From the NCBI RefSeq assembly GCF_011806455.1, contig NZ_JAATOT010000005.1, forward strand, positions 248,001 through 312,000: a stretch of 64,000 bases of DNA. The letters run 5' to 3'. The translations under genes were made by a program, and so were the position numbers. Under the pieces are notes generated by a model. The model saw only the letters and a program-made list of their open reading frames with translations, made no database searches and was not told where the DNA came from. Positions 4,664 through 36,050 of the stretch are shown one piece after another. Position 1 is the stretch's first letter, and each line of letters begins with the position of its first letter. This stretch comes from Celeribacter sp. HF31. GTDB lineage: Bacteria; Pseudomonadota; Alphaproteobacteria; Rhodobacterales; Rhodobacteraceae.

Positions 4664-6406
<1,743 letters not shown>

Positions 6407-18854: not shown

Positions 18855-18930
18855 GCCCCTATAGCTCAGCTGGTAGAGCAACTGATTTGTAATCAGTAGG
18901 TCCGCGGTTCGAGTCCGTGTGGGGGCACCA
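18855..18930 (+). tRNA. tRNA-Thr (anticodon TGT)
   Basis: A 76-base cloverleaf. The acceptor arms are GCCCCTA and TGGGGGC, the D arm is GCTCAGCTGGTAGAGC, the anticodon stem ACTGA/TCAGT has loop TTTGTAA (anticodon TGT, threonine), and the T arm is CGCGG-TTCGAGT-CCGTG. CCA is encoded. The last 15 bases recur at 25895, marking this tRNA as the integration site of the adjacent element. Confidence 0.96.
18916..18930 (+). repeat. attL core (3' end of tRNA-Thr)
   Basis: CGTGTGGGGGCACCA is the end of the tRNA gene and is repeated exactly at 25895-25909. Integrases that use tRNA 3' ends restore the tRNA in this manner. Confidence 0.85.
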
Positions 18931-18996
18931 ATTGCAAGCCTAAAATCGCAAGTATAGTTGAATTTCTCAGGAAATAGCGTTTTTACGGCTCGAAAC

Positions 18997-19017
18997 TGCC
19001 ACACAATTTGCCACACG
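18997..19017 (+). promoter_or_regulatory. Paired 9-base repeats, probable integrase arm sites (left)
   Basis: TGCCACACA (18997) and TGCCACACG (19009) are spaced 12 bases start to start. The same arrangement, in the same orientation, lies at 25767-25787 near the other end of the element, as expected for arm-type binding sites of a tyrosine integrase. Alternatively they are operator sites for the integrase promoter. Confidence 0.5.
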
Positions 19018-19141
19018 TAAGCGGGTTGCCCGCCTCATAGAGCGCGATTTTTCGTAACTCGATTAAGCATGGATTTGTAGGCCGCACACGCATAGCTGGC
19101 GCCTATCAAACCAGGCAATTTTGGCGATTTTTATTTGAACC

Positions 19142-19170
19142 AACCTCCTTCCCATCAGTTGAAGGAGGTT
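19142..19170 (+). promoter_or_regulatory. Hairpin that sequesters a perfect Shine-Dalgarno
   Basis: AACCTCCTT (19142-19150) and AAGGAGGTT (19162-19170) are perfect 9-base complements with an 11-base loop. The second arm is the Shine-Dalgarno of the following TTG-start gene, and the first arm is an anti-Shine-Dalgarno. Translation should be off when folded, so a thermosensor, trans-acting RNA or protein could open it. The function is inferred. Confidence 0.5.
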
Positions 19171-19173
19171 TCA

Positions 19174-19359
19174 TTGAACGGGCAAACGCAACGCTTGGAG
19201 AAAGCCATGGCAACCATGCTTCGGATTATTCGTGATCGACCAGATCGTCGAAAATATATGCCCATAGTGCAGCGTCTTGAACGGGCTATTACATCAAGTA
19301 AGAATGATGACGCGGAGTTCGAGCGGATTATGGGCATGGCCGCAGAGCTTAAAGGTTGA
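19174..19359 (+). CDS. Small basic protein of the element, unknown
   Basis: 61 residues from a TTG at 19174, five bases after AAGGAGG; an internal ATG at 19207 is the alternative. It is helical and charged (LEKAMATMLRIIRDRPDRRKYMPIVQRLERAI) and ends in an amphipathic helix. It has no domain I recognise. It is the first gene inside the attL end, where such elements often carry an excisionase or small regulator, but no helix-turn-helix is evident. Confidence 0.5.
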   Translation: MNGQTQRLEKAMATMLRIIRDRPDRRKYMPIVQRLERAITSSKNDDAEFERIMGMAAELKG

Positions 19360-19553
19360 GTGATTGAGAAGTTTTACTCAAGGAATACCCCGACATAAGG
19401 AGAATGAATTTTCTTTCATTCCTTCTCTTGATTTGGTTTCTGTATGCTGAGCCGTTGGCCGACGGTTGGCGATCTTTTTTCATATCGGCTATGTTGTCTA
19501 TTGAAACTGTGACATCAAAGCTTTGATGAGCAATGCGAATTTGAGGTAATCAA
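19360..19553. other. AT-rich leader before the two-gene cargo
   Basis: A non-coding stretch of 194 bases. It contains an imperfect hairpin, with GAATGAA (near 19402) pairing TTCATTC (near 19416), which may end transcription of the small gene. Promoters for the following pair probably lie here. Also present are the short tandem CGTTGGC/CGGTTGGC and the palindrome TCAAAGCTTTGA near 19512, a possible operator. Confidence 0.4.
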
Positions 19554-20582
19554 GTGATCCAAGTATTCAGCACCGACCAAGACAATGTCATCAGCAGTGT
19601 TGTCGCAATAGGCAAGGCGAATTACGAGTTTGCTCTCGAGCGCTTGCATCCACTTCTTAATCGTTTTGGTGAGCAGCGTAAGCTTCAATCGAAGAGCTTC
19701 TACTCAAGACTAAAAGCTGACATTGTGTCAGGCTGTATCATGCCGCCTATTACTCTTGCTTTCGTGAGTGAAGACTCTTCTCACAATTTAACGGCAGATG
19801 ATGCCCAAACTTTCATAAACAACCACATTGATGATGGTTACATTCTTGATGGTATGCAGCGCCTAAACACTCTTCAGGATGCATCCAAGGAAGATGGATT
19901 TGATCCTCTGCGCCCGATCCATATCAACATTATCATCGCGAAAAAATATGATCTGCTTCTTTATAGAATGATCACTCTCAATAATGGTCAGAAACCGATG
20001 ACAGCACGTCACCAAATTGAGATGTTGACCCGCGGAGCGATCGATCTCTCTAACGTGGATTTGCCAATTGTCACTGAGAAAGAAACGGAAGAAGCAAAAG
20101 TCATTGGGGCCTTCAAAAAGTCTGATATTGTTGAGGCTTACACAGCCTACTTGACCGACAATGTTAACAACCAGAACAAAAAAATTATCGAAACTAAACT
20201 GAATGAAATTTTGGTTGGCAGAGTTATGGAGACGAACCTGAGTGATCAAGATGTTAGTTTCTCGGAAATTCTCGCTGAAGTTGGCAGATTAGTCGTCGAG
20301 CCCGGCACGAAGACTTGGCTGAGACTTGGGAATAATCTTATAGGTTTTACCGTTGGAGCCAAAAAATCCATTGAGGTTCTTCGAAACATTACCCCCGTGG
20401 CCTTTGCTGAAGTCGTCAAGAGATTTGATCAGGCATTCGATGCCATAAACCCGTCGAAAGTTAATGTCGGAAAGGTCAGACGTGAACTTTCAGCATTTTA
20501 CATTGGGCAACTTGGCGAGTTTGTAGACGCGTCGGTTGAGGATATCGAAACCGCTTTTTTTGAAAAGACTATGTCTGAATAA
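19554..20582 (+). CDS. ParB/DUF262/DGQHR-like cargo protein
   Basis: 342 residues from a GTG with GAGG seven bases upstream. Residues 95-107, GYILDGMQRLNTL, match the nucleotide or DNA-interacting signature of the ParB-like/DUF262/DGQHR superfamily (usually DGQQRLxTL or DGQHR). A second conserved-looking part is LYRMITLNNGQKPMTARHQIEML near residues 138-160, again typical of DGQHR proteins. The C-terminal half is helical. Relatives occur in DNA-modification and phage-defence loci. It is followed three bases later by an HEPN-like gene, implying one unit. No nuclease motif was recognised. Confidence 0.55.
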   Translation: MIQVFSTDQDNVISSVVAIGKANYEFALERLHPLLNRFGEQRKLQSKSFYSRLKADIVSGCIMPPITLAFVSEDSSHNLTADDAQTFINNHIDDGYILDGMQRLNTLQDASKEDGFDPLRPIHINIIIAKKYDLLLYRMITLNNGQKPMTARHQIEMLTRGAIDLSNVDLPIVTEKETEEAKVIGAFKKSDIVEAYTAYLTDNVNNQNKKIIETKLNEILVGRVMETNLSDQDVSFSEILAEVGRLVVEPGTKTWLRLGNNLIGFTVGAKKSIEVLRNITPVAFAEVVKRFDQAFDAINPSKVNVGKVRRELSAFYIGQLGEFVDASVEDIETAFFEKTMSE

Positions 20583-20585
20583 TAG

Positions 20586-21482
20586 ATGGCACCAACTTTT
20601 AGATTAAATGATCCGCTGCTGCCGGGTCGAGTCCAGCGACCTTTTAGCGTGCGAAATGATGGTGTGCCTGCATTTGAGTGCCTTCGCTTACTGTGCGGAT
20701 CAATGGATGTTACACATCAAGATTCAGGCGCAAAAGCGAAGTTTCGATACTGCCATCTCTCACAAGAAACGAGACGGCCCTCGAAGAGGACTATCGATAG
20801 TATCGTTGATCTCGTGTTTGACGGCGATTTGGAAACAAGCGACGTAAAGACATACTTGAATAAAGCAGCTACTGCGAACAGAGCTTTTTGGGAAGAATTG
20901 CGTGCTGAAATTTCCTTTTGTCTCTATGCCAGAAAGAAGAAAAGTTCTGTCGAAGCATTCTTGCATCTGTATCGAATTTTAGAGCTCGTCTCGGTAGCTT
21001 TGCCCCTAATTTACACATCTAAATTTTCTGATTTTCGTCAGGCTGTTTCGTTTATCAAGTCACTTAATAAAAACGACAGAGATCAGGATTTGGCGATTTT
21101 ACGGTATTTTTCTGAGGAAATAGCTAAAAGCGGTGAGCTTTCAAATCTAACTATTGATTACGAATTTTCTGAGTTGGGCGAACAGGCGCGAAGTCATTTA
21201 AGAACTCAGCTGGATAACTTAGTTCTTTCGGATAATAAGATTTCCCATTCTGGCTTCGCTAATCCGAACGATGGTGTGTCCTTGGAGTTTAAGTCTGTCC
21301 CCAGCTTTATGGTATCTTGTCGAAATCGCTTGTTTCATAATGCGCTCTCTGGCGAAAATTTTAAGATTGATAGTATTCGGGGGCCAGGTTCTCTGTGTTC
21401 GATCTTGGTTGACCCTGGGTTATATTGGTTCAGCCTATTGCTGTCTGAGATTTTAAAAGCCGAGGCGGCTCGCTACGTCTAA
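20586..21482 (+). CDS. HEPN-like protein (RX4H motif), partner of the DGQHR-like gene
   Basis: 298 residues starting three bases after the stop of the previous gene and without its own ribosome site, so probably coupled. It is almost wholly helical. Near the C-terminus VSCRNRLFHNALSGEN has R246 and H251 in the RX4H spacing that defines catalytic HEPN ribonucleases of toxin-antitoxin, Abi and CRISPR systems. RAEISFCLYARKKKSSVEAFLHLYRILELVSVALP resembles the long helices of Abi-type HEPN folds. Function (abortive-infection RNase or structural HEPN) is inferred. Confidence 0.5.
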   Translation: MAPTFRLNDPLLPGRVQRPFSVRNDGVPAFECLRLLCGSMDVTHQDSGAKAKFRYCHLSQETRRPSKRTIDSIVDLVFDGDLETSDVKTYLNKAATANRAFWEELRAEISFCLYARKKKSSVEAFLHLYRILELVSVALPLIYTSKFSDFRQAVSFIKSLNKNDRDQDLAILRYFSEEIAKSGELSNLTIDYEFSELGEQARSHLRTQLDNLVLSDNKISHSGFANPNDGVSLEFKSVPSFMVSCRNRLFHNALSGENFKIDSIRGPGSLCSILVDPGLYWFSLLLSEILKAEAARYV

Positions 21483-22677
21483 AACCGGGGATCTAAATCT
21501 ATGTCGTTTGTTTTGTGGCCTTTGCCGAGATGCGGCGATCTGGCACTATTGGCGTGAAGATTTTGCTTTACCGACCGAACTCCAAACGTTGAATAATTTA
21601 GGCGCATTTTCAATATGTCGCGCAACATTATCAGCTCAAGAAAAATGCGCCGAATAGGCTTCCTACTGCGAAGGCTGCTGCAATTATTGGCCAGCTGGGC
21701 GCAAGGGACATTGGAGATTGTGTGGGGTGTTCTTCTCGGTTGCTTTCCTGCCTCTGTAGAGCCGCTCCGATTTGGTGCAATGCATGCTTGACTGCCTTGA
21801 TCTCGGAGGAATGGCGGTTCTGTGTGCTTAGAAGCTGTGCCACGCCGCTGATCGTTCGCTCTGTGTTTCTCGAAGCCGCTGTGGCGGCCATTTCCGTTGC
21901 CTCCATCGCAGCTTGCCAATCTATCGGTTCGTTCTTGTGCATTGAGTGCCTCCTTGCTGGCGTTGATTTCTTTGATGATTTCGTTTGCTTCAGTACGGGA
22001 ATGGCCTTGATCAATGTTGTGCCATGCTGCCTTGGGCTGAATAGTATGCTTTGCTGAAAGAGTGGCCCTGCTTCCGGGGCCTTCATGTATTGTCGGAATC
22101 TTATCTATGCCGCGTTCGAGAAAGGAACGATGGTCAATCATTGATGAAGGCGGGTACCCCCAAGCAGTCATTAGTCGATTGTGAACAGTCGCCCAGTCCC
22201 GAGCGGCATTCTCAACGGCTGATTTACGAGCCATGCCGATAATGCTTTTAGGTCGTCCTCGGCCGCCAGTTTTGATGTACTTGTCGAACAAAACGACGTG
22301 AGCGTGCGGGTTCTTGGCGTCGTTGTCGGTTTGGTCATGAATGGCCGCAATAAATCCGGCCTGCTTCTTAGTCATATGCTCGCAGAAAGCTCTTGTGAGG
22401 GCTTCTCTCTGCTGTTGTGAGGCCTCCCCGTGGGCAAAGCGATGATGAAGCGCTCACAGACGCGTCCTTTGCGCTTCTCAGCGTCATTCTCCACCTGCTT
22501 TGCGATCTTCGGAAGGGGAGAGTTGGGAAGACGATCTTGAATCACGATGCGCGCCGCGCTTGAGCGTGTGATGTATCGAAGATGAGCCGCAGTTTGCCCG
22601 TGTTTTGCGCGCCGAGTGTCGCGCGTTACTTTTGGGGAGAATGTCTTGGTGCTGTGCCGAAATGAAAAGAGTGCCAT
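21479..22677 (-). pseudogene. MobA/MobL-family relaxase, frameshifted
   Basis: Starts at the ATG at 22677 (MALFSFRHSTKTF). The N-terminal part AKHGQTAAHLRYITRSSAARIV and RFIIALPTG are MobA/MobL-like; the frame then ends. In the -1 frame the family text continues without loss (QQQREALTRAFCEHMTKKQAGFIAAIHD, then NPHAHVVLFDKY, the HxH metal motif). One missing G in the GGGG run opposite 22426-22429 explains the break. The second frame remains open to 21479 but overlaps the membrane-protein gene, so the real end is likely near 21945. Relaxases nick oriT for mobilisation; this copy should be inactive. Confidence 0.7.
21631..21942 (-). CDS. Small protein with C-terminal membrane anchor, next to the relaxase
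   Basis: 103 residues from the ATG at 21942 with AAGGAGG six bases upstream. The N-terminal part (NEPIDWQAAMEATEMAATAA, then STQNRHSSEIKAVKHALHQI) is helical and probably coiled. The end, SWPIIAAAFAVGSLFGAFFL, is a single membrane helix. Genes of this type often follow small MobA/MobL relaxases on alphaproteobacterial elements, perhaps as mobilisation accessory or coupling proteins. This last point is inference. Confidence 0.6.
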   Translation of the reverse strand: MHKNEPIDWQAAMEATEMAATAASRNTERTISGVAQLLSTQNRHSSEIKAVKHALHQIGAALQRQESNREEHPTQSPMSLAPSWPIIAAAFAVGSLFGAFFLS

Positions 22678-22757
22678 CGCTGTTTTTGAGCGCTGGGACA
22701 AAATTACTATTTTGTCCGTTGTGCGCATTAAAGTTTAAACAGAGATAGGAAATCGAT

Positions 22758-23024
22758 TTGGCGAACCCAAAAGTTGAGAAGTCACTTGATACTTTAGCAA
22801 TTCTCATATCCAGCCATTGTAGAAAATGGCGATTGGCAGATATTGAGTTCGAACAACTTTCAGCCGCTCAGAGGCGGGCCGCGATTACGGCCACGCTTGA
22901 TTATTTCGAACATGTTTTAGAGCGTATGCTGCCCCCCTTAGTGGAAAGCGGCAGCTCTTCGGGAGAGGGCGCCACGGACACATTTCCGCAGCGCTCACGC
23001 TTTGACGATCACTCTGTCTTTTGA
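22758..23024 (+). CDS. Small unknown protein of the element
   Basis: 88 residues from a TTG at 22758 (TAGGAA upstream). The protein is helical in the middle (LADIEFEQLSAAQRRAAITATLDYFEHVLERMLPPL) and disordered at the end. It diverges from the relaxase and its 3' end overlaps the ATPase gene by 16 bases. No family recognised, and the TTG start makes it uncertain. Confidence 0.4.
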   Translation: MANPKVEKSLDTLAILISSHCRKWRLADIEFEQLSAAQRRAAITATLDYFEHVLERMLPPLVESGSSSGEGATDTFPQRSRFDDHSVF

Positions 23025-24136
23025 GTGTCTGTCGCGGCAGTCTTGGAGAGGCGATACATCTTGTTTCGCGTTTCAACCTCTCCAGATTTCACCATTGAAT
23101 CCAGTGCTTTTTTGGTTTGCTTGCGCATCGATTCACTGTTTTCGCGCACCGCGTTAAAGGCATCGCCGGTCAAAGCCTGAACGCTCTTTGGGTCAAGCCA
23201 AGAACCTGCTTCGTGCTTGTCATGTTGACTGAGAACCCGAAGGATATCGTCCTTTCTAAGGTCTGCAACAGATTGAACTGGCTGCGGACGTCGATTGCTG
23301 TTCGCGACTTGTGAAACAGTTGTTTGCTGTTTCTTGAAGGGAACTGCTTTTGGGACCGTCACTTTGTCTTCTTCGGAGTCGAAGCCTATTTGAAAGCTCT
23401 CGATCTCGAAGGTGATCGGGGCTTGGAGTTCATTGTTTTTTTGTTTCGTCGGTGTCAGTTGGACGATTTTTTGTGCCGCGTCACCTTTCGCCTTTTTGAG
23501 CAAAAATTCGTCGTCTGTGTTGCCTTTGATGGCACCGGAGCCTCGACCACGAGACTGGTCACCAAGCGGGGTATGATGAAGAAAGAGGACGTAACTCTCT
23601 GAGAGTTCGGCAATGCGGTGTGCGTTGGAAATGATTTTCCCCATTTGGTTAGAGGAATTCTCATCTGCTTCGCCAATCGCCAAGTTCGTTGTGTCGACGA
23701 TGACGATTGATCGTTCGGTTTGAGCTTTGACTTTTCGTGCTTTGATGTCCTGAATAATGCCATCAATATGATCGGCGTTGCCCATGTCAGGGACACGCTT
23801 GACGATATCAAAGGGAACGGAAGTCGCGTTGTAGTCTTTCAGGTATGGATAAGCACGTTTCTGAACTCCATTGGGGTCCTCAGGTGCCAAATAGTAAACA
23901 TATGAGCGTCGGACCTTGAGACCTGCAAACTCGTGGCCGAGAGCCAAATGTGCACATAGTGCCGCGACGATTGCGGTTTTGCCCTGAGCCGGCGGAGCAA
24001 TCAAAAAGCCGACCTGCCCCGGATTGAACCAGTGTTTGATCAGGTAATCTTGCTCGAGTTGCTCAATGGGTCCAGCCGCCGGAATTTCATCGCCGCCTGC
24101 AAAGCCTTCTTGTGAATTGGGTTGTTCTTGAAACAT
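23009..24136 (-). CDS. RecA-fold AAA ATPase (RepA/AAA_25-like)
   Basis: 375 residues from the ATG at 24136 (MFQEQPNSQEGF, with GCAGGA before it). Residues 41-60 read QVGFLIAPPAQGKTAIVAAL, a Walker A motif. YVYYLAPEDPNGVQKRAYPYL follows, and TERSIVIVDTTNLA is the Walker B strand; SYVLFLHHTPLGDQSRGRGSGAIKGNTD is the typical sensor region of plasmid RepA/DnaB-like hexameric helicases. The C-terminal 90 residues look like a winged-helix DNA-binding part (SVQALTGDAFNAV, MVKSGEVETRNKMYRL). It may serve replication of the excised circle. Upstream lies a large inverted repeat. Confidence 0.75.
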   Translation of the reverse strand: MFQEQPNSQEGFAGGDEIPAAGPIEQLEQDYLIKHWFNPGQVGFLIAPPAQGKTAIVAALCAHLALGHEFAGLKVRRSYVYYLAPEDPNGVQKRAYPYLKDYNATSVPFDIVKRVPDMGNADHIDGIIQDIKARKVKAQTERSIVIVDTTNLAIGEADENSSNQMGKIISNAHRIAELSESYVLFLHHTPLGDQSRGRGSGAIKGNTDDEFLLKKAKGDAAQKIVQLTPTKQKNNELQAPITFEIESFQIGFDSEEDKVTVPKAVPFKKQQTTVSQVANSNRRPQPVQSVADLRKDDILRVLSQHDKHEAGSWLDPKSVQALTGDAFNAVRENSESMRKQTKKALDSMVKSGEVETRNKMYRLSKTAATDTQKTE

Positions 24137-24231
24137 ATCCTGCTTTCTTCTTTTTCGATTCAGCACCGTGCTGTCTCGTGAACGGGACATGTTGTCGTTT
24201 CGGAAAACGCAAAATAAAAAGTTTGAAGAAA

Positions 24232-24302
24232 ATTCCAGACAGACGCACAGACCAGCGCCTCCTTGTAGGAGGCTTTGGCTGGTCTGTGCGTCTGTCTGGA
24301 AT
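24232..24302. repeat. Perfect 25-bp inverted repeat with nested hairpin
   Basis: Arms at 24232-24256 and 24278-24302 are perfect reverse complements over 25 bases. The 21 bases between contain a second hairpin, GCCTCC (24257-24262) with GGAGGC (24268-24273) around TTGTA. It lies between the integrase stop and the ATPase start, both on the minus strand. On that strand AATTTTC follows, so it may stop integrase transcription, but such length and perfection suggest a replication or transfer origin or a recombination site. Confidence 0.8.
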
Positions 24303-24317
24303 GGGGACGTTTCAAGT

Positions 24318-25763
24318 TTACGAAACCCGGAAGCCTTGTTCTTCAGCGAGACGATCAATCTCCGCTCGAAGTGTTTGAATCGAACGGGGTGACCAACTTG
24401 CGGTTGGGAACGCCACCATCTCTTGATACAGCGCCCGCAATTCCAAGTCTGGCATCGAACCATAAACGGGACGGCCTCTGACGGCCCCCACAGAGTGTCC
24501 CATCAAATACGCACGTTCCTCATTCGTCATTTTTGCTTTGGTCATTCGGTCTTCGAAAGTATGGCGTGTGCAGCTCAAGGTGTATTTTCCTGCCATGCCG
24601 TCTGCGACTTCAGGAAACAACTTTCTGTCCTTCAGGTAGTTGTTGACGGTTCCGGGGTAGGTCTTCTTCCCGCGATATCGGTCAAAGCCCTTGGGGTGTC
24701 TTTTCATCGCTTCAAGCGCAGCGCCGTGGAGCATAACTGGCCGTTTTGAGGCGGCATTCTTGATCTGTCGTTTGTATTTTCCTGAGCTTTCGGGAGCCAA
24801 CTGGATATGAGGAAACTCGTGGTCGAGATGGATAGCATCCGGTGGTAAATCGAAAATCTCGGATTGGCGGCACCCGCATTCAGCCGAGATCGTGGCGATG
24901 TCGCGTGCCTGCTCGTTCAGTCCTTCAAGCCCGTTTTGGTCGATCAAGTGATGTTTTATCCAAGTCACTGGCAATGACAATTTCTTGGGCGTGTTATCCT
25001 CGGATGCCGTTTTCTCAATTTTGAGCTCTTTAAACGGATTTTTTCTCTCGCTGTTAGGCATATCAAAGCGATTGTAGAAAGCGTCTACAAGTTGACGTGC
25101 GAACCTTAGTCGTTTGTCGGCGTGGTTTGTTGAGATTTCACCACTATCGCGTCGAGTAAGCCAATGGCGCTTATATTTCATCGCGTCTTGTTCCGTAATT
25201 TCGAGCACAGGTTTATCGCCGACGATTTCGCAGAAGGATTTGGCGGCGTGCTTGTATTTGTTCCTCCATTCGTCCAGTTGCCGTCCGTTTTTGCCGGCAA
25301 GGTTGGCTTTGTTGGTTTCTTCGATGATGGAGACCATCTCGGAGAAATTCACGGGCGGATAGTCGAGGGCTCCGAGAACAGCCGGAACCATTGCAGATTG
25401 AGTGTCCGTCTTTTCAAGTGCTTCAATTCGGGCGAGAAGCTTTTCAATTGGATCGGCCAAGAGTTCTTTTTGAGGGCGATAAGGTACGCCAATCTCGCGC
25501 AGCATTTCCAACGCAGCATCGAACGTTTCCGGGGTGGTTTCGCCGCGAGCTTCTTTGAGGCGGAAGTCCCAATCGGCGAGCAACGATCTCTGCGCTACAG
25601 CAAGATTTGCCTTCGCTTCGATGATGTCACGCGTTTTTAGGGACCGGTTGATCTCTTTGCGTTTCTCTACGGCTGCATAACGTGCTGGAACGCGCCAGCG
25701 CATGTAATAGACCTTGCCTCTCCGTTCGATGCCCTCAATACATTTGTCTTCGACTGCGATCAT
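24318..25763 (-). CDS. Tyrosine integrase of the tRNA-Thr element
   Basis: 481 residues from the ATG at 25763; a GTG at 25784 is an alternative but lies in the arm-site repeat. The N-terminus has the KVYYMRWRVPARYAAVEKRKEINRSL type start of phage-like integrases. The core catalytic set can be read: Arg in AECGCRQSEIFDL, Arg-His in SCTRHTFEDRM, His in YLMGHSVGAVRG and the nucleophile Tyr in RPVYGSMPDLELR. It integrates DNA at the 3' end of tRNA-Thr, as the flanking repeats show. Length is at the upper range. Confidence 0.92.
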   Translation of the reverse strand: MIAVEDKCIEGIERRGKVYYMRWRVPARYAAVEKRKEINRSLKTRDIIEAKANLAVAQRSLLADWDFRLKEARGETTPETFDAALEMLREIGVPYRPQKELLADPIEKLLARIEALEKTDTQSAMVPAVLGALDYPPVNFSEMVSIIEETNKANLAGKNGRQLDEWRNKYKHAAKSFCEIVGDKPVLEITEQDAMKYKRHWLTRRDSGEISTNHADKRLRFARQLVDAFYNRFDMPNSERKNPFKELKIEKTASEDNTPKKLSLPVTWIKHHLIDQNGLEGLNEQARDIATISAECGCRQSEIFDLPPDAIHLDHEFPHIQLAPESSGKYKRQIKNAASKRPVMLHGAALEAMKRHPKGFDRYRGKKTYPGTVNNYLKDRKLFPEVADGMAGKYTLSCTRHTFEDRMTKAKMTNEERAYLMGHSVGAVRGRPVYGSMPDLELRALYQEMVAFPTASWSPRSIQTLRAEIDRLAEEQGFRVS

Positions 25764-25766
25764 TTC

Positions 25767-25787
25767 TGCCCCACACTCTGCCACACA
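25767..25787 (+). promoter_or_regulatory. Paired 9-base repeats, probable integrase arm sites (right)
   Basis: TGCCCCACA (25767) and TGCCACACA (25779), start to start 12 bases, match the left pair in sequence, spacing and orientation. They lie directly upstream of the integrase ATG, so they could also control its expression. Confidence 0.5.
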
Positions 25788-25894
25788 AAAGTGGATTTCC
25801 TGACATGCCGCTTTTCAGCGAAAAACGACGATTTCCTCAGGGAATGTTGGGTTCTTTGAGATTTTCAAAAATCGTAGTTTGATGCCCATGAGAG

Positions 25895-25909
25895 CGTGTG
25901 GGGGCACCA
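25895..25909 (+). repeat. attR core
   Basis: Exact copy of the last 15 bases of tRNA-Thr. The following TTTTTATAAATT is probably the native tRNA terminator displaced by the integration. Confidence 0.85.
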
Positions 25910-26402: not shown

Positions 26403-26782
26403 TTGGCAAGGGGACCCGCTGCGCGTCCCCGTTGCATCCCTCCGGCCATGTCTCAGCTTGGGTATCGAACCCACCAGAGCCAACAGAACCTATCGCCGTT
26501 CAATCACTCGCGGGAGACTTCGCTCTCCCTGCACCCATCGATCAAAGAGCGTTCCTGCCCGTTTGAAATCCTGACCAACCTTCCGCAGTTTGGATGCCGT
26601 CACCTTGTCGAAGGTGAATCACGATCCGGGGGCTTATCGCCGCCCCCTCGAAACCCAGCTCGTTAGACGTGGAGACTACCTCTCCACCAACACCGAACCA
26701 TGGAAATCACCGAGCATTCCGATTGCGCCCCGTGCCAGCTTCATGCACAATGGCTATAATGTCCATTTTGGATCAAATCTGC
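26403..26782. other. Junction DNA without convincing gene
   Basis: 380 bases between the truncated HEPN gene and the Phd-like gene. Short open frames exist in several phases without good starts. Base composition differs from the HEPN fragment. TATAAT at 26755-26760 is a perfect -10 element for the next operon, with no good -35. TCCATTTTGGA at 26763-26773 is palindromic and could be an operator. I recognise nothing else. Confidence 0.4.
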
Positions 26783-26962
26783 ATGAAGACGCTGTCCGCC
26801 CGTGACGCCAAAAACCGCTTCGGTTATCTGATAGATACCGCAAGGCAGGAGCCTGTTTCCGTAGAAAAGCACGGCAGGCCTGTCGTTGTGGTGCTCAGCG
26901 TCGAAGACTATGAACGCTTGGCAAGCAGTGCATCTGGGACTGTTACCGGGGAGCCGGAATGA
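26783..26962 (+). CDS. Phd/YefM-type antitoxin homologue leading the defence operon
   Basis: 59 residues from the ATG at 26783: MKTLSARDAKNRFGYLIDTA, then EPVSVEKHGRPVVVVLSVEDYERL, a close match to the Phd/YefM antitoxin fold that binds DNA with its N-terminus and the toxin with its C-terminus. No Doc, YoeB or other toxin gene follows; its stop overlaps the ATG of dcm (ATGA). It may therefore act as the operon's transcriptional regulator. It is the only gene of this operon that is intact. Confidence 0.8.
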   Translation: MKTLSARDAKNRFGYLIDTARQEPVSVEKHGRPVVVVLSVEDYERLASSASGTVTGEPE

Positions 26963-28481
26963 CCAGAAAGGCTGCCTATCCACTGATTGACGTCTTTGCG
27001 GGGCCGGGCGGCCTTGGAGAAGGTTTTTCGTCTCTTGTACGCGGGAAGCATGATGCCTGCTTTCGAAGCGCAGTTTCGATTGAACAGGACGAGTTCGCTC
27101 ACCGGACACTTCTACTGCGGCACTTCCTGAAGACTATTACCGGTATCTCAAAGGCGAAATCACCCTTGATGAGTTGTACCAGATGCACCCGGATGAGAAG
27201 GCGCATGCCGACCGGTCGGCGATCCGGATTTCGCTTGGTGCCGCAAACCATGACCGCGTCCGAAAACTGATTGCCAGGAGACTTCGGGATCAGAAGAAGT
27301 GGGCGCTTGTCGGTGGGCCTCCTTGTCAGGCCTATTCTCTCGTCGGCAGATCGAGAATGATGGGTGATCCAAAGTTCGAGAAAGATGAGCGGCATTTTCT
27401 GTACAAAGAGTATCTCCGCATCATCATTGACCACGCTCCGCCTGTTTTCGTCATGGAAAACGTTAATGGGCTGCTCTCGGCTCGCGTGAATGGCGAACTG
27501 GTTATCAACCGGATTACAGCCGATCTCGCATCGCCAAAAGACGCGCTTGGCATGTCTTCCAACGGGCTTGGGTACAGGCTTTATTCGCTCTCAGAAGAAG
27601 ACCTGCCCGGCGATGAACCTGATCCCCGTATGTTCCTAGTACGAGCAGAAGAGTACGGTGTTCCGCAGGCAAGGCATCGGATGTTCATTGTCGGCATCAG
27701 AAATGACATCAATGTGCGCCCCGGACGATTGAAGCCTCATCACGCGCCCACATTAAAACAGACGATTGGCAATCTGCCCAAGACCCGAAGCGGCATATCA
27801 AGAGGAAGAGACAGTTACGAAAGATGGTGGGCGGAAATATCTGGGATCGATCATGTAGCCATTCGCAGGGAACTGAATGGCCATGCTTACGCAAATAATC
27901 TGATGGACTTGATGGGGATCGATCTAACACGGCCCTTGAAAGCGCTGGAGAAGTCCTCAATCAGATATCCTCCTCGTCCGAATTTTCCCCATGATGCGCT
28001 TGACAGCATTTACGACTCTGAGCTCGCGGTTCTGGATAGCCATGAAACGCGCTCTCATATGCCTTCTGATCTACGGCGCTATGCTTTTGCGGCCTCTTTT
28101 GCATCTGTTACCGGAAAGAGTCCGAAGCTCGCGGATTTTCCACGCAGCCTGCTTCCAGATCATGCCAATGTCGAAGACCGAAGGGCCGGAAAGATGTTCT
28201 CGGATCGTTTCCGTGTGCAGCTTCCGGGGCAGCCTTCAACGACCGTCACTTCGCACATCTCCAAAGATGGCCATTACTTCATTCACTACGATCCAAAGCA
28301 ATGCCGAAGACTGACAGTCAGAGAAGCAGCCCGTCTTCAGACGTTACCCGAAAATTACCGCTTCGAGGGGTCAAGAACCTCTCAGTATCATCAGGTCGGA
28401 AACGCTGTTCCGCCCTACCTAGCACGTCAAATCGCAAGCATCGTAGCGGAGGTGCTTGACCGGGCTGGAGAGATCACGTGA
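26959..28481 (+). pseudogene. DNA cytosine-5 methyltransferase, frameshifted
   Basis: Would be about 507 residues. Frame one gives motif I (PLIDVFAGPGGLGEGF) and breaks near 27121-27129. One added base there restores RHFPEDYYRYLKGEITLDELYQMHPDEK and all later motifs: GGPPCQAYSLVGRSR (catalytic Cys), FVMENVNGLLS (ENV), QARHRMFIVGIR, and GNAVPPYLARQIA at the end. It overlaps the Phd-like gene and ends TGATG with vsr. In the module it would mark self DNA; as read it lacks a continuous frame. Confidence 0.85.
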
Positions 28482-28906
28482 TGGTTGACAGAATTTCTCC
28501 AGAGCATCGAAGTTGGAATATGCCGCGTATTCGGGGAAAAGACACTAAACCTGAAATGGTCTTGAGGTCACTCTTGCATCGCGCTGGTTTCCGCTTCCGG
28601 CTGCATGACAAGAGATTTCCTGGAAAACCGGACCTTCTTCTGCCAAAGCACCAAACGGCTATCTTTGTAAATGGCTGTTACTGGCATCGCCACGAAGGGT
28701 GCCGAAAGGCGACGACACCCAAAACAAATGCGGCTTTCTGGAAGAAGAAATTCTAAGATACCGTTGCGCGCGATGCGCGAAAAACTTCACAAATTATTGC
28801 GAAGGGCTGGCGCGTCATCACTATCTGGGAATGTGAGATTGAGGGCGACCCTGCGGGAATTGTCGATAGCCTGCGTGCGCAGCTGAAAGGGGGTAGTAAT
28901 GGTTAG
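28481..28906 (+). pseudogene. Vsr mismatch endonuclease with in-frame stop
   Basis: Starts at the ATG overlapping the dcm stop. The family text is clear: RSWNMPRIRGKDTKPEMVLR, FPGKPDLLLPKHQTAIFVNG, CYWHRHEGCRKATTPKTNAAFW. TAA at 28754-28756 then interrupts, but the same frame continues with DTVARDARKTSQIIAKGWRV and ITIWECEIEG to a TAG at 28904, giving the normal 142 or so residues. Vsr nicks T:G mismatches made by deamination of 5-methylcytosine and accompanies Dcm enzymes. One base change explains the stop. Confidence 0.85.
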
Positions 28907-30380
28907 AGAACACCATCTGCCCTCAGTGCTTTTTCCCTGTCCGCATCAATGCGCGATCTTGGCTATTCGCTTGAAACCGCGATTGCAGATCTCGTTGATA
29001 ACAGCATTTCGGCGGATGCAACCAAGGTCGATATATTTTGCGACCTAACCCAACAACACCCAACCCTTGGTATTATTGATAATGGTCACGGGATGGACGA
29101 AGCAGGCATTGTTGACGCCCTGCGCCACGGCTCAAAAAAATCCGTCGGAACCTCGTTCACCGAAGGTCCTTGGACGTTTTGGCCTTGGACTCAAGACTGC
29201 CTCCTTCTCCCAATGTGAGAGGCTAACTGTCATTAGTAACGATGGTGGTGGGCCCCACGCAGCGGAATGGAACCTCGAAACTGTTCACAAGAAGGATGAT
29301 TAACTGATCGCCATCCTTGAACTCGAAGAGATCGCAGAAATTCCTTTCCAGGAGCTGATCACGGGCAATGGAACAGCGGTGGTTTGGCGCAACCTTGATC
29401 GATTGTTTGAAGATGAAATAGGAGCCAAGCGCGATGAGATCGTCAATGAGAAGCTCGATGTTGTCGACAAACACCTGTCGCTAATGTTTCACCGGTTTCT
29501 TAGTGGCGAAGTGCGTGGTCGGAAGGAACTTTCACTTTCCCTCAATGGTCATCCGATAGAGCCGTTCGATCCGTTTTGCCGGAAGAATTCAGCTACACAG
29601 ATGCTGCCGGAAGAAGTTGTCCGAATTGACGGTGTAGCAGTTCACATGCAGCCCTACATTCTGCCCCACCACAGTAAACTAAGCGCAAAGGAGTACGACT
29701 TCTATCAGAACCGTAGCGACTTCATCTCCAACCAGGGAGCTTATGTGTACCGCGGGGGACGGCTTATGGCCTGGGGCGACTGGTTCCGACTTATTCCCAA
29801 GGGTGAAGCCACAAAGCTGGCCCGCGTACAGATTGACTTCCCCAATAGTCTCGATGAGATGTGGACCATCGACATTAAGAAGTCGCGAGCAAGCCCTCCA
29901 GCTCCCGTTAGAGCCCGGCTGCGCCAGATAATTGATAAGATCACGACTCGCAGCACAACCGTGCATCGCGGCAGAGGGAAGAAGCTTTTCGATGAGATTA
30001 AGGCGCCAGTCTGGGAACGATATGCTGACCTAGGAAGCATCCGATATGCATTGAACCAGGAACACCTACTTATCGAAGCGCTTAGCTCCGAACTGAGTGA
30101 TGAGAATTGTCGCCGCCTCACGACACTCATCGAAGCAATTTCGTCGTCGCTCCCAGTAGAGATGATTTATTCGGATTTTTCGACCCATCCGCGTGACATC
30201 CGTCAAAAGGGTGCCTCGCAAGAAGAGATCAATGAGCGTCTCAGCGCTCTGAAGAAATGCCTTTTTGGGGATGGCGCAGTTAACGTTGAGAGCTTCAGAG
30301 AAGTTATGCACTCAACACGGTTCTTCGTGGGCTTTGAAGATGCTGCCGAAGAATACATTATGAAAGAGCTGAAGAAATGA
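28899..30380 (+). pseudogene. MORC/MutL-like GHKL ATPase, two frameshifts and one stop
   Basis: Starts at the ATG at 28899, overlapping vsr by eight bases. A missing C in the CC at 28913-28914 shifts the frame; corrected, it reads MVREHPSALSAFSLSASMRD then LGYSLETAIADLVDNSISA (N-box), IIDNGHGMDE (G1). An extra A in the A7 run at 29135-29141 shifts it again before GSKNPSEPRS and VLGRFGLGLKTASFSQ (G2). TAA at 29301-29303 is an in-frame stop. The rest (29304-30380) is open, about 360 residues of MORC-like transducer and helical part. GHKL ATPases of this type act with Z1 proteins in predicted restriction modules. Confidence 0.8.
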
Positions 30381-33029
30381 ATTTTAACAAGTTAGAGAGT
30401 CAGAAGAACTTCACGAGTGCGCTTATTTCGGCGCTATCCCTACTGCCGGAAACGCCAACGCGTGAAGAGGTTGGTGAGCGAGCAAAGCAGCTCGCGGCTG
30501 CATTCGGATATGATGGTCCGCTTGAAACTGTCATTGAAGATGCTCTCATTGCGGTGGATTCGCGCATGGGTGCTGGCGTTTCCCTTGTCGATGTTGAAGC
30601 CGATCATGACGATGAATGGGTATATAAGCGTGAGAATATCACTTGGACGTATTCTGATGCCTACGAGCAATATCTAAAAAAGAACAGATGCACCCCACGG
30701 TAGTGCGCTCACTAAGTGATGTCGGAACCAAAATACTCGGCCACTTGCAGGCCCCAGAAAGCCAAGGCAAGTGGGACCGTCGTGGCCTCGTTATCGGACA
30801 CGTACAATCGGGCAAGACCGCAAACTACATGGGTGTAATCGCCAAGGCGGCTGACGCCGGGTATAAGTTCATAATCGTCATTGCGGGTATTCATAACAAT
30901 CTAAGAAAACAGACCCAAGAACGTATCGACGAAGGATTTGTTGGGCGCTCCAGCGACCCGGAAGATCGTAAGAGGGTTGGCGTCGGTCTGACCCACGACT
31001 ATCCGCATCCTGCCACGCTAACAAACATTAATGATGACTTCAGTAAGAAGACCGCCAACCAGAGTGGATGGAAGATCAACGATCTGAATAAGCCAACTGT
31101 GCTGGTCATCAAGAAGAACGTCAGCACCCTGAAAGCCCTACACGTGTGGCTTAAGGAAAAGAACGCTCAGGCTAATGGTGTAATTGCCGATGTTCCGATG
31201 CTAATGATCGACGATGAGGCCGACAATACGTCTATCAATACCAACAAGCCTGAACTCGATCCCACAAAAACAAACGCAATGCTGCGAAAGATCCTCGGTC
31301 TCTTCGCTAAGTCCTGCTACGTAGGCTACACTGCCACTCCGTTTGTAAACATCTTCATCAATCCTGATTCATACGATGAGGAAGCCTATGAGGAGTTGTT
31401 CCCACGCGACTTCATTGTCAGTCTTGATTCTCCCAACACTTACTTTGGACCGGATAAAGTTTTTCTTGATGATTCCAGTAGCGCAAGGATTGTAAGGCCG
31501 ATTTGGGACAGTGAAGACTACCTTCCTTTTTCTCAAAAGAAGGATGATCCAGTTCCAGAGCTTCCGCCCAGTCTTTATAAGGCAATTGATCAGTTCATTG
31601 TGGCAAGGGCCATTCGGAATCTGAGGGGGCAGGTTAACAAGCACTGCTCGATGATGATCAACATCTCCCGGTTTGTGGTGACGCAGAACACCGTACGCAG
31701 CTTCGTCAGCCTTTACAAAGAGAAGCTTCGAGAGGCCGTGAAAGCAAATTATGCGATGCCGTATTCGATATCGCAAAAGAATGAGATCATGTCTTCTTTG
31801 AAGTCGTGTCTTGAGAGAGAGTTCTCTGACTGCGGGTTTACATGGCCCGAGATAAAAATTGCCCTGAACGGCGTCTTCGACAATCTTCGCATCTTCGTGG
31901 TGCACAGTAAGTCCGACGAAGCACTCGACTACAAGAAGTACGAGCGTGACGGGAACAGCCTTACCGCCATCACGATTGGCGGTTGAGTCTCTCTCGTGGC
32001 CTGACCATCGAAGGTCTTACTGTGAGCTACATGTACCGCAACACGCGCATGTACGACACGCTCATGCAGATGGGACGTTGGTTTGGCTACAGACCTAATT
32101 TTGAAGATGTTTGCCGAGTCCGTTTGTCTCCGGATTCTATCAACTGGTACGGACACATCGCGGAAGCATCAGAAGAACTGCGACAACAGATCAAGAGAAT
32201 GCGACGCGACAGGATGAGCCCAAGGCAGTTTGGCCTGTATGTGAAAGCTCACCCGGACCGGCTCCTTATCACCGCCGCCAACAAGATGAGGGCCGGTGAG
32301 AGAATTGTTGTAGATCAGAATTGCAGCGGGCGAATTGTTGAGAGCTACCTTCTGCCATTCGACAAAAAGGTCAATGAAGATAATGAGGCCTTGATTGCTG
32401 AGTACTGGAAAGAAAATTTTGGTTGCGCCGCATTGGAAGAGACTGGAAAGGGCTGGCTTGCCAGAGATGCAAAGCTTTCGGAGATAGAGGAGTTTCTCAC
32501 GAAGTTTCGCAGTCACCCTGACTTTGCTGATCGCAAGGGGGCGGCGCTGAGTTACCTCCGTGCTCTTTCAGACAGATACGATGCCGGGGATGTTCTGCTT
32601 ATCTCGGTTTCGGCCAAGGGAGAGGATGCGGACAACCACCTAATCGGAACGCAGTAACGAACCAGTGCCCATCGTGATGGTGATGCATGGCGAACGAGCA
32701 AGGATCGCGTTGCCAGCCGTGGCGACGAAAAACTAGGACTGTCCGAGCCACAGAAGGATGAAGCAACGGCGCTAGCAAGGGAGGACGGCGAGGACAAAAA
32801 GCCATCTGACTTCCATTTCCGCTCAGTGCGCAAGAAGCCGTTGTTGATGGTCCATGTTCTTGGGCCGGTTGGTAAGGATATCGATGCTCGCGTTCCAGCG
32901 TTCGGCCTCAGTTTCCCGCCAGGCCACTATAACACGGAAGTTAAAGTCGTTGCGATCCAGATCTGGATCGAACGGATGCAGGGTGGGTCGTTCGATACTC
33001 CTGACGAAGAGGATGACTACGATGAGTAG
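30377..33029 (+). pseudogene. Z1-domain (helicase-like) protein, two frameshifts and one stop
   Basis: Would be about 884 residues. Part one (30377-30681, MNFNKLESQKNFTSALISAL) breaks in the A6 run at 30676-30681. Part two has GLVIGHVQSGKTANYMGVIA (Walker A), IVIAGIHNNLRKQTQERID, MLMIDDEADNTSIN (Walker B) and YVGYTATPFVNIFINP. It breaks at 31981-31984, after which SRGLTIEGLTVSYMYRNTRM and LMQMGRWFGYR (motif VI) follow. TAA at 32655-32657 interrupts in frame before KKPLLMVHVLGPVGKD and the end. The start overlaps the MORC stop as ATGA. Z1 proteins are superfamily 2 helicase-like ATPases. Confidence 0.82.
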
Positions 33030-33991
33030 TAAAGCACCATGGGACGAAATGAAGACCCCCGGACAGCGATTATACTGTCAGATATGTAAGCAACCCGGGT
33101 GATGTTACGCTATGTTGGGGTAAAGACGTTCAGGGACAGTGCCTTTTTATAGTTCGATTGGAGGGTGATCACACTGTGCAGTTCCGGAAGAATGCAACCA
33201 CAGTTAACGGTATTGAAGTCGATCTGCGGCAGTTGCCGGAACCCGGTAAACAGGGTTTGATTCTAACGCTCGAAAAGCATGTGGACCGCGATCTTTTCCA
33301 TGGTCTGTGCCAGACGCTCATCGGAAACCTCAATGGGATCATTGATCCTGCCGCCGCGTTAGGTGTCGCGCTGATTCACATCAAGCGCTGGAAGGCGTTC
33401 CTTGTGGGTAAACGAACGCGCGTCCTATCGACGGAAGAAGTGCGGGGTCTTTTTGCTGAGTTGAACTTTCTTCGTCTTCTTAAGAAAAAACATCTAAGCG
33501 ATGTTCAAGCAGTTGAAGCATGGTGTGGGCCTGATCGCATACATCAAGACTTCATTTTTGGCGATACCGCTGTCGAAGTAAAATCCATCAGTGGCCGGGA
33601 CCGAAGCATAGTACGCGTCTCCTCAGAAGATCAGCTAGAGACCGTTTCCGAACACCTCTTTCTCAACGTTTACCGCTTGACAGAGGCTCCTGACGGAACG
33701 CCCGCCCAATCACTTAACGAACTTGTTTCAGCAATAGGGCACGAGTTGAGTGACGCCGATGCAATTGAAGACTATTGGAGGAAACTGGCAACCTATGGAT
33801 ACGTGGAGATGAGGGAGTACGATAATCCAACGTTTCTCGTGAGTGGTTCAGTTGCCTACCGCGTATCTGATGGTTTTCCCCGAATCGTCAGATCAGCACT
33901 GCCAGACGGCGTTGTGGACGTGAAATACAAGCTTCAACTTGAAAAGATTGCGCCATTCGAGTGCAGTCAGAGCGACATCTGGGGGAGTTAA
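33022..33991 (+). pseudogene. PD-(D/E)XK motif protein (DUF4420 family), frameshifted
   Basis: Starts at the ATG at 33022, overlapping the Z1 end. MSSKAPWDEMKTPGQRLYCQ is followed by a stop in the first frame; removing one base at CCCGGG (33094-33099) gives KQPGDVTLCWGKDVQGQCLF and joins the long open part. IHQDFIFGDTAVEVKSISG has the D...ExK pattern of the restriction-endonuclease fold, near residue 190. RRL and ELNFLRLLKKKHLSD precede it. Full length about 322 residues. It is the likely nuclease of the module. The stop overlaps the AIPR ATG (TAATG). Confidence 0.75.
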
Positions 33992-36050
33992 TGGAACAAA
34001 CAATCCCCGCATTTTTTCACGACTTTCGCCAAGAGCTCATGGCGGGAGCTGAGGCGAACGGCGCATTTCAGCTTTCAGAATTCATGGAAGCTTTCTCAAT
34101 CGAGCTTATCGAAACAGGCTTTATCGAGGGCTTTGAACTCTGCCATTACAGGGCCCAGAGAGGCATGCGCATCGATGGTTACTGGTTCAATGATGAGGGC
34201 GCGCTTGATCTATTCATCGCAGACTTTGACAGTCGGGACGAGCTTCAGTCGCTGACACAGACAGATGTGAACGCCGCGTTCAAACGTGTGGAAAGGTTCT
34301 TTGAATCAAGTCTTTCAAAAAAGCTCTTTAGTGATCTTGATGAAACCACCCCAGAATACGGACTATCCCGACAAATAGCAGATCGTAAGGCTCTCATTCG
34401 CAAGGTCAACTTCTTCCTAGTATCCGAGCGCGCGCTGAGCGACCGCATGCAAAGCATTGATGGGCGGCATGTCTGCGATATCGAAGCGACTTATCATGTT
34501 TGGGACATCTCGCGTCTGCAACGGCAGCGCAGCTCCCGTGGTCATAAGGAAGCGTTGGATATCGACTTTGAGGAAGAGTTCGGGAGTGGATTGAACAGCC
34601 TCCCGGCGCATCTGGGTTCCGATGCCTATCAGTCATACCTCGTAGTCATGCCTGGAGAGGTGCTGGCTGCCATGTACGGAAAGCACGGAGCGCGGCTCCT
34701 TGAACAAAACGTTCGCTCCTTCCTCCAAGCGCGCGGGAAAGTGAACAAGGGCATCCGCACCACCATTTTGAACGAGCCAGGAATGTTCTTCGCGTACAAC
34801 AATGGTATCACGGCCACATCTCGGGAAGTGGAGGTGGAACAGGGCGAAGATGGACTGAAAATCGTTCGCATCAAGGACCTTCAAATCGTGAACGGCGGGC
34901 AGACTACAGTCTCGCTTTTTCACACCAAAAGACGCGATAAGGCAGCGTTAGATGGCGTGTTCGTTCAGATGAAGCTTTCGGTCATCAACCCCGAAGACAG
35001 TGAAATCGTTGTTCCGAGGATTTCGGAATACGCCAATACTCAGAACCGCGTGAACGCCGCCGATTTCTTCTCAAATCATCCTTTCCATGTTCGGATGGAG
35101 GAATTCTCACGACGCATATGGGCACCGGCTCACAGTGGTGCTCAACGAGAAACAAAGTGGTTCTATGAACGTGCCAGAGGGCAATACGCCGACGCACAGT
35201 CAAAACTGACTCCGGGTGAGCAGAAGCGCTTCAAGGCTGAGTACCCAAAGCCGCAGATGTTCACGAAAACTGACATCGCAAAATTTGAGAATGTCTGGGA
35301 CGATCATCCCAAGTGGGTTAATCTCGGGGCGCAAAAAACTTTGCGCGCTATGCTGCACGGATAGGTAAGGCATGGACTAAGAACCAAGACGGTTTCAATG
35401 AGCTATACTTCCGGCGCTCTATCGCTCGTGCAATCATTTTCCGATGGGCTGAGAAGATGGTCTCTGGAGAGACTTGGTACAACGGCGGCTACCGAGCCAA
35501 TATAGTGGCCTACGCCATTGCAGCGATCAACGAACTCTCCAAACGAGCAGACAAGGTTATCGACTTTCAGAGATGTTGGACCAATCAAGAGGTGTATGAA
35601 GAACTTGCAGAAGCTCTGCGTCAGGCAGCAAAGTTCGTGAACGACGATATCTCGCAACCGCCTCAGGGAATTTCAAACATATCCGAATGGTGTAAGAAGG
35701 ACTCCTGCTGGGAACGACTCGCCGGGAAGATCGACCGGCTAGAAACTGACATCAGCCTGAACTTCTTCAAAACCTTGGTTGAAATCGATGAGCAGAAGGC
35801 GGAACAAAAGCAGGCAAAGAAAGCGCAGAAGATTGATGATGGAATAGACGCACAAAGACAGGTTCTTGAAGTTCCTGCGCAAAAGTGGAGTCAAATCCGT
35901 CATATTGGAACTGAAAGGGGATTTCTAACTGAGAAAGAGGTCGGCATAATTAAGGTTGCGGAGCAAATCCCCCAAAAAATTCCAACCGAGAAACAAAGCG
36001 AAATATTGGTGGGCGTACTTGGTAAAGCTCATGCCGAAGGTATTTTGTAA
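33991..36050 (+). pseudogene. AIPR (abortive infection phage resistance) protein, frameshifted
   Basis: Would be about 686 residues from the ATG at 33991. Frame one holds GMRIDGYWFNDEGALDLFIAD and the family hallmarks MFFAYNNGITATSREVEV and KDLQIVNGGQTTVSLFH. It breaks in the A6 run at 35333-35338; with one more A the text continues as GAQKNFARYAARIGKAWTKN, then GFNELYFRRSIARAI and the C-terminal part ending AHAEGIL at 36050. AIPR proteins are named from lactococcal Abi plasmids. It is the last gene of the operon. Confidence 0.85.

Follow-up and report, generated by a model that had tools for sequence, protein, structure and literature searches.

The initiator helicases SaPI Rep and SCCmec Cch2 have origins that adjoin their own genes, and both Cch and Cch2 are related to the SaPI Rep helicases (PMC7581432). 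In the portion of that paper drawn on here, SaPI Rep recognizes its iterons through its C-terminal domain, and the Cch2 site consists of direct repeats, deletion of inverted repeats being without effect on binding by Cch2 (PMC7581432). In pRN1 a stem-loop immediately downstream of the replication gene is required for replication, and one set of mutants replicated only once the symmetry of the stem had been restored; the protein combines an SF3 helicase and a prim-pol domain with a C-terminal winged helix, the sections used here describe a system without iterons, and direct proof of an origin was lacking in that study, whose authors extended the stem-loop-origin idea to phage BIP-1 (PMC4234260). 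At the oriV of RSF1010/IncQ, as outlined in part of the same paper, RepC reads the iterons, RepA unwinds, and ssiA and ssiB form hairpins (PMC4234260). Once excised, the integrative mobilizable element SGI1 replicates as a plasmid; the relevant part of the source describes an oriV that is linked to rep and contains direct repeats along with an inverted one, an initiator of the IncN2/N3 RepA type and putative DnaA boxes (PMC7826253).

The locus considered here is a palindrome at 24232–24302 in the marine bacterium Celeribacter sp. HF31, flanked by the genes for an integrase and a RepA-type helicase. It resembles SaPI Rep and Cch2, as far as the cited portion goes, in that the helicase of an integrated element has short repeat units beside its own gene (their recognition is what we infer for the element), and differs in that these units are arranged, upstream of the gene, as a long perfect palindrome. 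With pRN1 it shares a stem-loop adjoining the replication gene and a C-terminal winged helix on the protein, whereas the helicase superfamily, the prim-pol domain, the lack of iterons and the downstream position of the stem-loop set pRN1 apart. The likeness to RSF1010, within the part of the source used, lies in the RepA fold, in the MobA/L relaxase of the element and in the presence of origin hairpins; the element differs in that neither RepC nor RepB' was recognized in its scanned ORFs and in that its helicase adds a winged helix, and the phages related to the element differ from RSF1010 in that hairpin arms and array share one repeat. The repeats and rep linkage of the SGI1 oriV are also a likeness, although its initiator belongs to a different family.

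The window (the whole stretch of DNA that was analyzed, 64,000 nucleotides) contains an element of 6.98 kb at about 18931–25909, bounded by a 15-bp direct repeat. Its features are given below, L numbers denoting the loci used for comparison.

18916..18930, plus strand: att copy at the 3' end of tRNA-Thr, CGTGTGGGGGCACCA
19554..20582, plus strand: cargo gene, DzbA match (PADLOC, E 1.8e-50)
20586..21482, plus strand: cargo gene, weak DzbB match (PADLOC, E 5.8e-4)
21479..22728, minus strand: MobA/MobL (MobQ-like) relaxase, here as two overlapping ORFs
22696..22717, no strand: palindrome at the relaxase start, GGACAAAATTACTATTTTGTCC; its 17-nt GGACA/TGTCC spacing also occurs in L069 and L060
22758..23024, plus strand: small divergent ORF of 88 aa, with matches in L013 and L057 and no Pfam hit
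23009..24136, minus strand: RepA-type helicase, AAA_25 (Pfam), 375 aa, starting 95 bp from the hairpin
24203..24231, no strand: A/T-rich tract between the hairpin and the helicase start, seen in the sequence
24232..24256, no strand: left arm of the palindrome, ATTCCAGACAGACGCACAGACCAGC, with AGAC/GCAC units; 24 of 25 bases shared with Celeribacter halophilus (L013)
24257..24277, no strand: core, an inner hairpin and a 4-nt tail, resembling by eye the C/T-rich apex of related hairpins
24278..24302, no strand: right arm of the palindrome, the exact reverse complement of the left arm
24318..25784, minus strand: integrase with a DUF6538 N-terminus (Pfam; phrog_1 integrase, E 8.6e-16)
25895..25909, plus strand: second att copy, completing the 15-bp direct repeat

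Judged by its gene content, this ~7-kb stretch looks like a putative integrative mobilizable element with defence cargo: it has an integrase (of the tyrosine-recombinase type by our own reading), att direct repeats and a relaxase, and no match to a transfer apparatus was found among the scanned element ORFs. No primase was recognized among the seven element ORFs scanned, and none of these gave a match to the RepC initiator or the RepB' primase. The relaxase is a single 378-aa ORF in L013 as against two overlapping ORFs in the window, and mobilization of the window's copy may be impaired. The 88-aa ORF is MobC-like by position only, and the palindrome at 22696–22717 is likely to mark a candidate oriT region; its GGACA motif is shared with some phage arrays. 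The cargo at 19554–21482 is a probable Dazbog defence pair (Dazbog being what we take the Dzb name to denote) carried on a small mobilizable element. Just beyond the element, at 26669–35364, lie a Phd/YefM antitoxin, a C-5 cytosine methylase and an Mza-type defence cluster, whose MzaB match and MzaC match each extend over two ORFs. Elsewhere in the window a strong Rfam match to 5_ureB_sRNA (4850–5137, minus strand, 112.9 bits), a family that presumably originates from Helicobacter, may reflect urease coding similarity and not an sRNA.

The palindrome at 24232–24302 is not a product of chance. Its arms (24232–24256 and 24278–24302) pair at 25 of 25 positions across a 21-nt spacer, and the core consists of a GCCTCC-TTGTA-GGAGGC hairpin (24257–24273) followed by a TTTG tail (24274–24277), which confirms the earlier note's description of a perfect 25-bp inverted repeat enclosing a 6-bp hairpin and a 4-base tail between an integrase and a RepA/RecA-like ATPase. 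For 64 kb of this base composition the expected number of perfect stems of at least 25 bp with a loop of 3–60 nt is about 6e-9, and the runner-up perfect stem in the window, with loops in the same range, measures 13 bp. Minus-strand RNA from 195 nt around the palindrome folds with an energy of −87.6 kcal/mol, which corresponds to z = −9.2 relative to 200 shuffled sequences. At up to three mismatches the arm occurs in its own assembly (13 contigs) at this locus only, once per strand, and among 394 family genomes both strands carry it at one place only in the window's genome, with scattered single matches elsewhere; C. halophilus, which lies outside that set of 394, has the arm at the same site. 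An exact arm 19-mer had no match in viral contigs, the arm query found no place covering at least 80% of its length in plasmid and phage records, the helicase–integrase stretch had no match in plasmids, and Rfam at the gathering threshold returned nothing at the palindrome.

The closest relative is the C. halophilus locus L013 (L013 and L069 are repeats of the same locus), in which gene order around the palindrome matches that of the window. Identity is 24 of 25 bases in each arm, 79% in integrase DNA and 77% in helicase DNA. A single arm-like stretch at 96% is not rare, because 104 of 3843 gap-free 25-column windows outside the hairpin reach that level; the conservation of two arms of one non-coding palindrome is nevertheless notable. 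The core is flipped between the two sequences: on the integrase strand the tail precedes the inner hairpin (5' side) in the window but follows it (3' side) in L013. This flip, seen in two sequences, could have arisen by recombination or template-switch inversion between the perfect arms, a process that would also maintain arm identity.

The helicase has a RecA-fold core like that of RSF1010 RepA. AAA_25 is recognized by Pfam (E 1.1e-21), a profile built from the helicase and its relatives (alignment A2) finds RSF1010 RepA (1g8y) at E 1.2e-14, and the structural model (mean pLDDT 79) superimposes on 1g8y with Z 22.7 and rmsd 2.4 over 218 aligned residues, spanning residues 15–267. The last ~80 residues are modeled as a winged helix (best Z 9.9, 62 aligned, mean pLDDT 70.6), a predicted DNA-binding domain for which the VIA-align list made no one family prominent. 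This modeled winged helix is a plausible reader of the arm repeats, and by analogy it may take over the iteron-reading job of RepC. Identity to the window's helicase is only 21–23% for the phage-type helicases of alignment A2.

Related helicase loci in the Rhodobacteraceae were found by protein search only, which gave 10 in 295 family genomes and 5 in 20 genus genomes, 14 of them different. A long hairpin lies 5' of the helicase in eight of the 14 (L057, L059, L060, L062, L064, L066, L069, L070), and a repeat array plus hairpin lies 3' of the helicase stop in five (L061, L063, L065, L067, L068), the array passing the 5% level in four of these and standing at 0.14 in L065. The one locus with neither layout, L058, encodes a helicase without the usual N-terminal stretch and has an IS5-like reading frame upstream (the IS5 name is our own reading, and two upstream ORFs sent to Pfam gave no transposase). 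All seven hairpins scoring at least 16 among these loci are 5' of the helicase, and the distance between hairpin and helicase is 95–259 bp in seven of the eight upstream-hairpin loci, with gene starts set by the author and L062 outside the count. The same upstream hairpin is found 134 bp from the helicase in L079, a relative from a viral contig. Given that the neighbor in L060 is a divergent serine recombinase, the hairpin tracks the helicase and not the integrase. Thus a repeat-built site adjoins the helicase gene, as in systems of the SaPI, P4 and Cch2 kind, and in the element type it takes the form of a palindrome only: downstream repeat arrays were found at the 5% level in none of 10 element-type loci (the window itself stood at 0.054), and in none of nine in a stricter run against non-coding background.

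Arms of the related hairpins are composed of RGAC-like repeats, for example CCGGACGGACGGAC or CCGGACAGACGGACAGAC, around a C/T-rich apex, and the AGAC/GCAC arms of the window fit this pattern more poorly than the arms of the remaining relatives do. Covariation was compared over 14 outer pairs in seven hairpins lined up at their outer ends, with 3 nt removed from each side of L062 and L064; all 98 cells are paired, in part by construction because the hairpins were found as perfect stems, which is not true of the changes on both sides of the stem seen at six of the 14 pairs. This set excludes L059, which has a T-G within its stem, and L079, because the hairpin geometry of both is unlike that of the others. 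The same structure with covarying arms, which the earlier note had proposed looking for in related elements, is thus present in them. That note had also taken the perfect arms to imply selection or a recent origin, and of the two selection is favored, because complementarity is preserved although the arm sequences vary from relative to relative.

A GGAC-hairpin pattern matched 24 of the 295 family genomes, at one locus each, and a reversed-pattern control matched many genomes too. The helicase is present at four of these 24 loci, with stems of 24 (L177), 17 (L161), 12 (L175) and at most 10 (L179, where the repeats slip); loci without it reach stems of 14 (L176), 13 (L159) and 12 (L171), so that stem length in the register used fails to separate the two groups. 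None of the six class-level relatives L073–L078 has a hairpin scoring at least 15. Downstream of the helicase, under strict rules, three of the six have at least four repeat copies together with the apex, one has the copies without the apex and two have neither; repeats and hairpin are visible by eye as well in L073 and L074.

Viral contigs with related helicases were obtained by protein search, 80 of 109 relatives being kept. A first array run over 106 loci (elements, contigs, ten pattern-picked loci and four phages, with two further loci too short) found 68 in which the downstream repeat count was reached by at most 5% of background windows from the same locus, this background being mostly coding DNA. 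A stricter run on 50 non-redundant phage-type loci excluded elements and pattern-picked loci and used a non-coding background: at least four copies of a 7-mer occurred in the downstream 200 bp of 36 of 50 loci as compared with seven of 322 non-coding windows, and the apex occurred downstream in 23 of 50 as compared with six of 322, and in none of nine elements. In a separate run the apex was found in 22 of 63 loci and in 21 of 2021 background windows, again mostly coding. The apex rule was drafted after the sequences had been inspected, and the loci are related while the counts ignore kinship; the array and apex contrasts are optimistic for these reasons.

The downstream repeats vary by locus (TGTCACG, TGTCCCG, TGTAGGA, TTTGTAG, TGTCCGG and others), but share a geometry, in which direct repeats are followed by a hairpin whose repeat-bearing arms enclose an apex such as CACCCCTTTAGGGGTG. 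Across 45 loci, arms shared 695 6-mers with their own arrays against a permutation mean of 223 (none of 20,000 permutations reached the observed value), the hairpin used being the longest in the region searched and at times not the apex hairpin. Among 13 annotated phages hand-picked from the matches listed, close relatives such as CRP-823 and CRP-811 included, the array exceeded every background window in 10, and the apex test was also passed in seven. Gordonia phage CloverMinnie, Mycobacterium phage Serendipitous and Caulobacter phage GB2A had neither array nor apex at that place. Since 451 of the 684 records with a related helicase come from Mycobacterium phages, most phage records may lack the layout. 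A search of viral contigs for GGACRGACN{8,36}GTCYGTCC found a related helicase at no fewer than 11 of the 80 loci listed, as compared with none of the 80 listed for a scrambled pattern; among the matches listed, 10 of 11 helicase loci, some of them near-identical, have the hairpin 20–96 bp past the gene end.

Some features were noted in individual viral loci. Roseobacter phages CRP-823 (L422) and CRP-811 (L425) have the repeat TTTGTAG and CRP-831 (L427) has TTTATAC, with a common AACCCTTTAGGGTT apex. The motif GGTCCCAATGCCCC lies 3' of the hairpin in L094, L100, L111, L112, L113, L116, L124, L133, L136, L138 and L065, and a variant of it in L103. Viral contig L246 starts with a perfect palindrome of ~124 nt (1–124, 60-bp arms) with GGACAGACGCACGAG near its centre, which is either an inversion artefact of the contig end or a true terminal hairpin.

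Taken together, these comparisons make it probable that the element's putative oriV has the palindrome as its core and that the RepA-type helicase recognizes it there. The replication origin for an excised circle that the earlier note had listed among its possibilities gains comparative support, in that the structure tracks the RepA-type helicase and phage helicases have an array and a similar hairpin adjoining them. The element would excise at the tRNA-Thr att sites to yield a circle, on which the hexameric helicase encoded next door would recognize the RGAC-like units of both arms, probably via its C-terminal winged helix, assemble at the palindrome and open it together with the adjoining A/T-rich tract at 24203..24231, a possible unwinding region; host priming (primase) and polymerase would then copy the circle. 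An expanded form would be represented by phages that encode related helicases, where an array of short repeats accompanies a hairpin whose arms bear that repeat. GC skew lends no support to an origin at this place and counts weakly against it, as there is no turn at the hairpin in the two complete circular phages CRP-406 and CRP-831, where the skew minimum and the hairpin lie at 1924 versus 394 in one and at 8688 versus 3898 in the other. Further points against it are that the element has no repeat array beyond the palindrome, that no primase was recognized among its scanned ORFs, that three of the 13 phages lack array and apex, and that the phage-type helicases are so distant in sequence. The feature tables of the phage stretches examined annotate no origin at the array or hairpin.

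A hairpin in this position might instead act in RNA, as an intrinsic terminator or attenuator that ends integrase transcripts before the helicase or throttles helicase expression. The extreme fold of the palindrome RNA (z = −9.2) would suit such a role, as would the location of the hairpin after the integrase gene in L059, L066, L069 and the window and, in the integrase sense of the window, the TTTCTTCA that follows it (five T in eight). However, T counts in the 8 nt past the stem run 5, 5, 5, 4, 3, 2, 1 and 0 over eight loci including the window, L059 has AAAAATGC at that point, the upstream recombinase of L060 is divergent, and phage arms share repeats with an array for which a terminator has no need; a terminator scan of 23900–25900 also omits the hairpin, a result that the scan's loop and stem limits may explain. 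We consider termination an unlikely account, and the brake on integrase–ATPase readthrough suggested earlier is retained as a possible side effect in this copy with its weak T-run, although the T-run is not conserved and the recombinase of L060 is divergent. An operator through which the winged helix represses the helicase's own promoter, with the origin elsewhere, seems improbable as well: winged helices and long dyads are typical of autoregulation and the palindrome is 95 bp upstream of the helicase start, but the phage counterpart sits past the helicase stop, where an operator of that gene would not be expected. The palindrome could serve as operator and origin both.

The presence of a MobA/MobL relaxase in the element raises the matter of an oriT, or of a single-strand origin or priming site in conjugative transfer, and the ssiA and ssiB of RSF1010 are, in the part of the source used, stem-loops primed by RepB' (PMC4234260). 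The relaxase gene does not adjoin the palindrome at 24232–24302, however; it lies 1.5 kb off with the helicase between, and has at its start the palindrome of its own at 22696–22717 that is common to L069 and L060. Similar hairpins also occur in tailed phages, and a function in transfer, including the oriT of the earlier note, is very unlikely. The palindrome may still act in priming as a part of the origin. A recombination site or mobile palindromic element such as a REP-like unit, unrelated to the helicase, is scarcely credible: inversion of the core between the window and L013 would be in keeping with one, but the palindrome is single-copy in its genome, and among the 394 family genomes the two-strand arm is confined to the window's own, with C. 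halophilus having the same site. The site for a second recombinase that had also been proposed is at odds with the occurrence of related hairpins alongside different integrases and in phages. A REP-like repeat and a transposon end were considered and rejected, as were a recombinase site, a plain terminator and an oriT, these last three fitting worse than a replication origin.

A broader reading of the replication origin is offered tentatively, as possible though doubtful. A lone helicase of the RSF1010-RepA type with a winged helix would be its own initiator, and a palindrome of its recognition repeats would be a complete origin without a separate initiator or array; extrusion or copying of the hairpin would keep the arms perfect and flip the core, and the arrangement would constitute a widespread, undescribed class in phages and mobilizable elements, with repeats that change fast and a geometry that persists. 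An initiator helicase with an adjacent origin is already known from SaPI, P4, SCCmec and pRN1. The SaPI Rep, Cch and Cch2 helicases are not, to our knowledge, RSF1010-RepA-like. What we rate as new is the pairing of an RSF1010-RepA-type helicase with a repeat-built palindrome, because it appears in none of the SaPI/SCCmec, pRN1 and SGI1 systems, in the portions of the reports drawn on here, and because, among the open-access papers listed in literature searches, no title or abstract describes such an origin layout for RepA-type helicases.

If this is true, a repeat-built hairpin beside a RepA-type helicase would be the marker of a one-helicase replicon and would point to origins in many phages and integrative elements, RSF1010-type helicases could function without RepC, and origins would be predictable from sequence alone. 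The loci would also supply a paired series of protein–DNA recognition in which the repeat varies while the layout stays constant, with CRP-823, CRP-811 and CRP-831 as a natural series for helicase–origin co-evolution. For Celeribacter, it would mean that a ~7-kb island with defence genes can probably multiply once it has excised.
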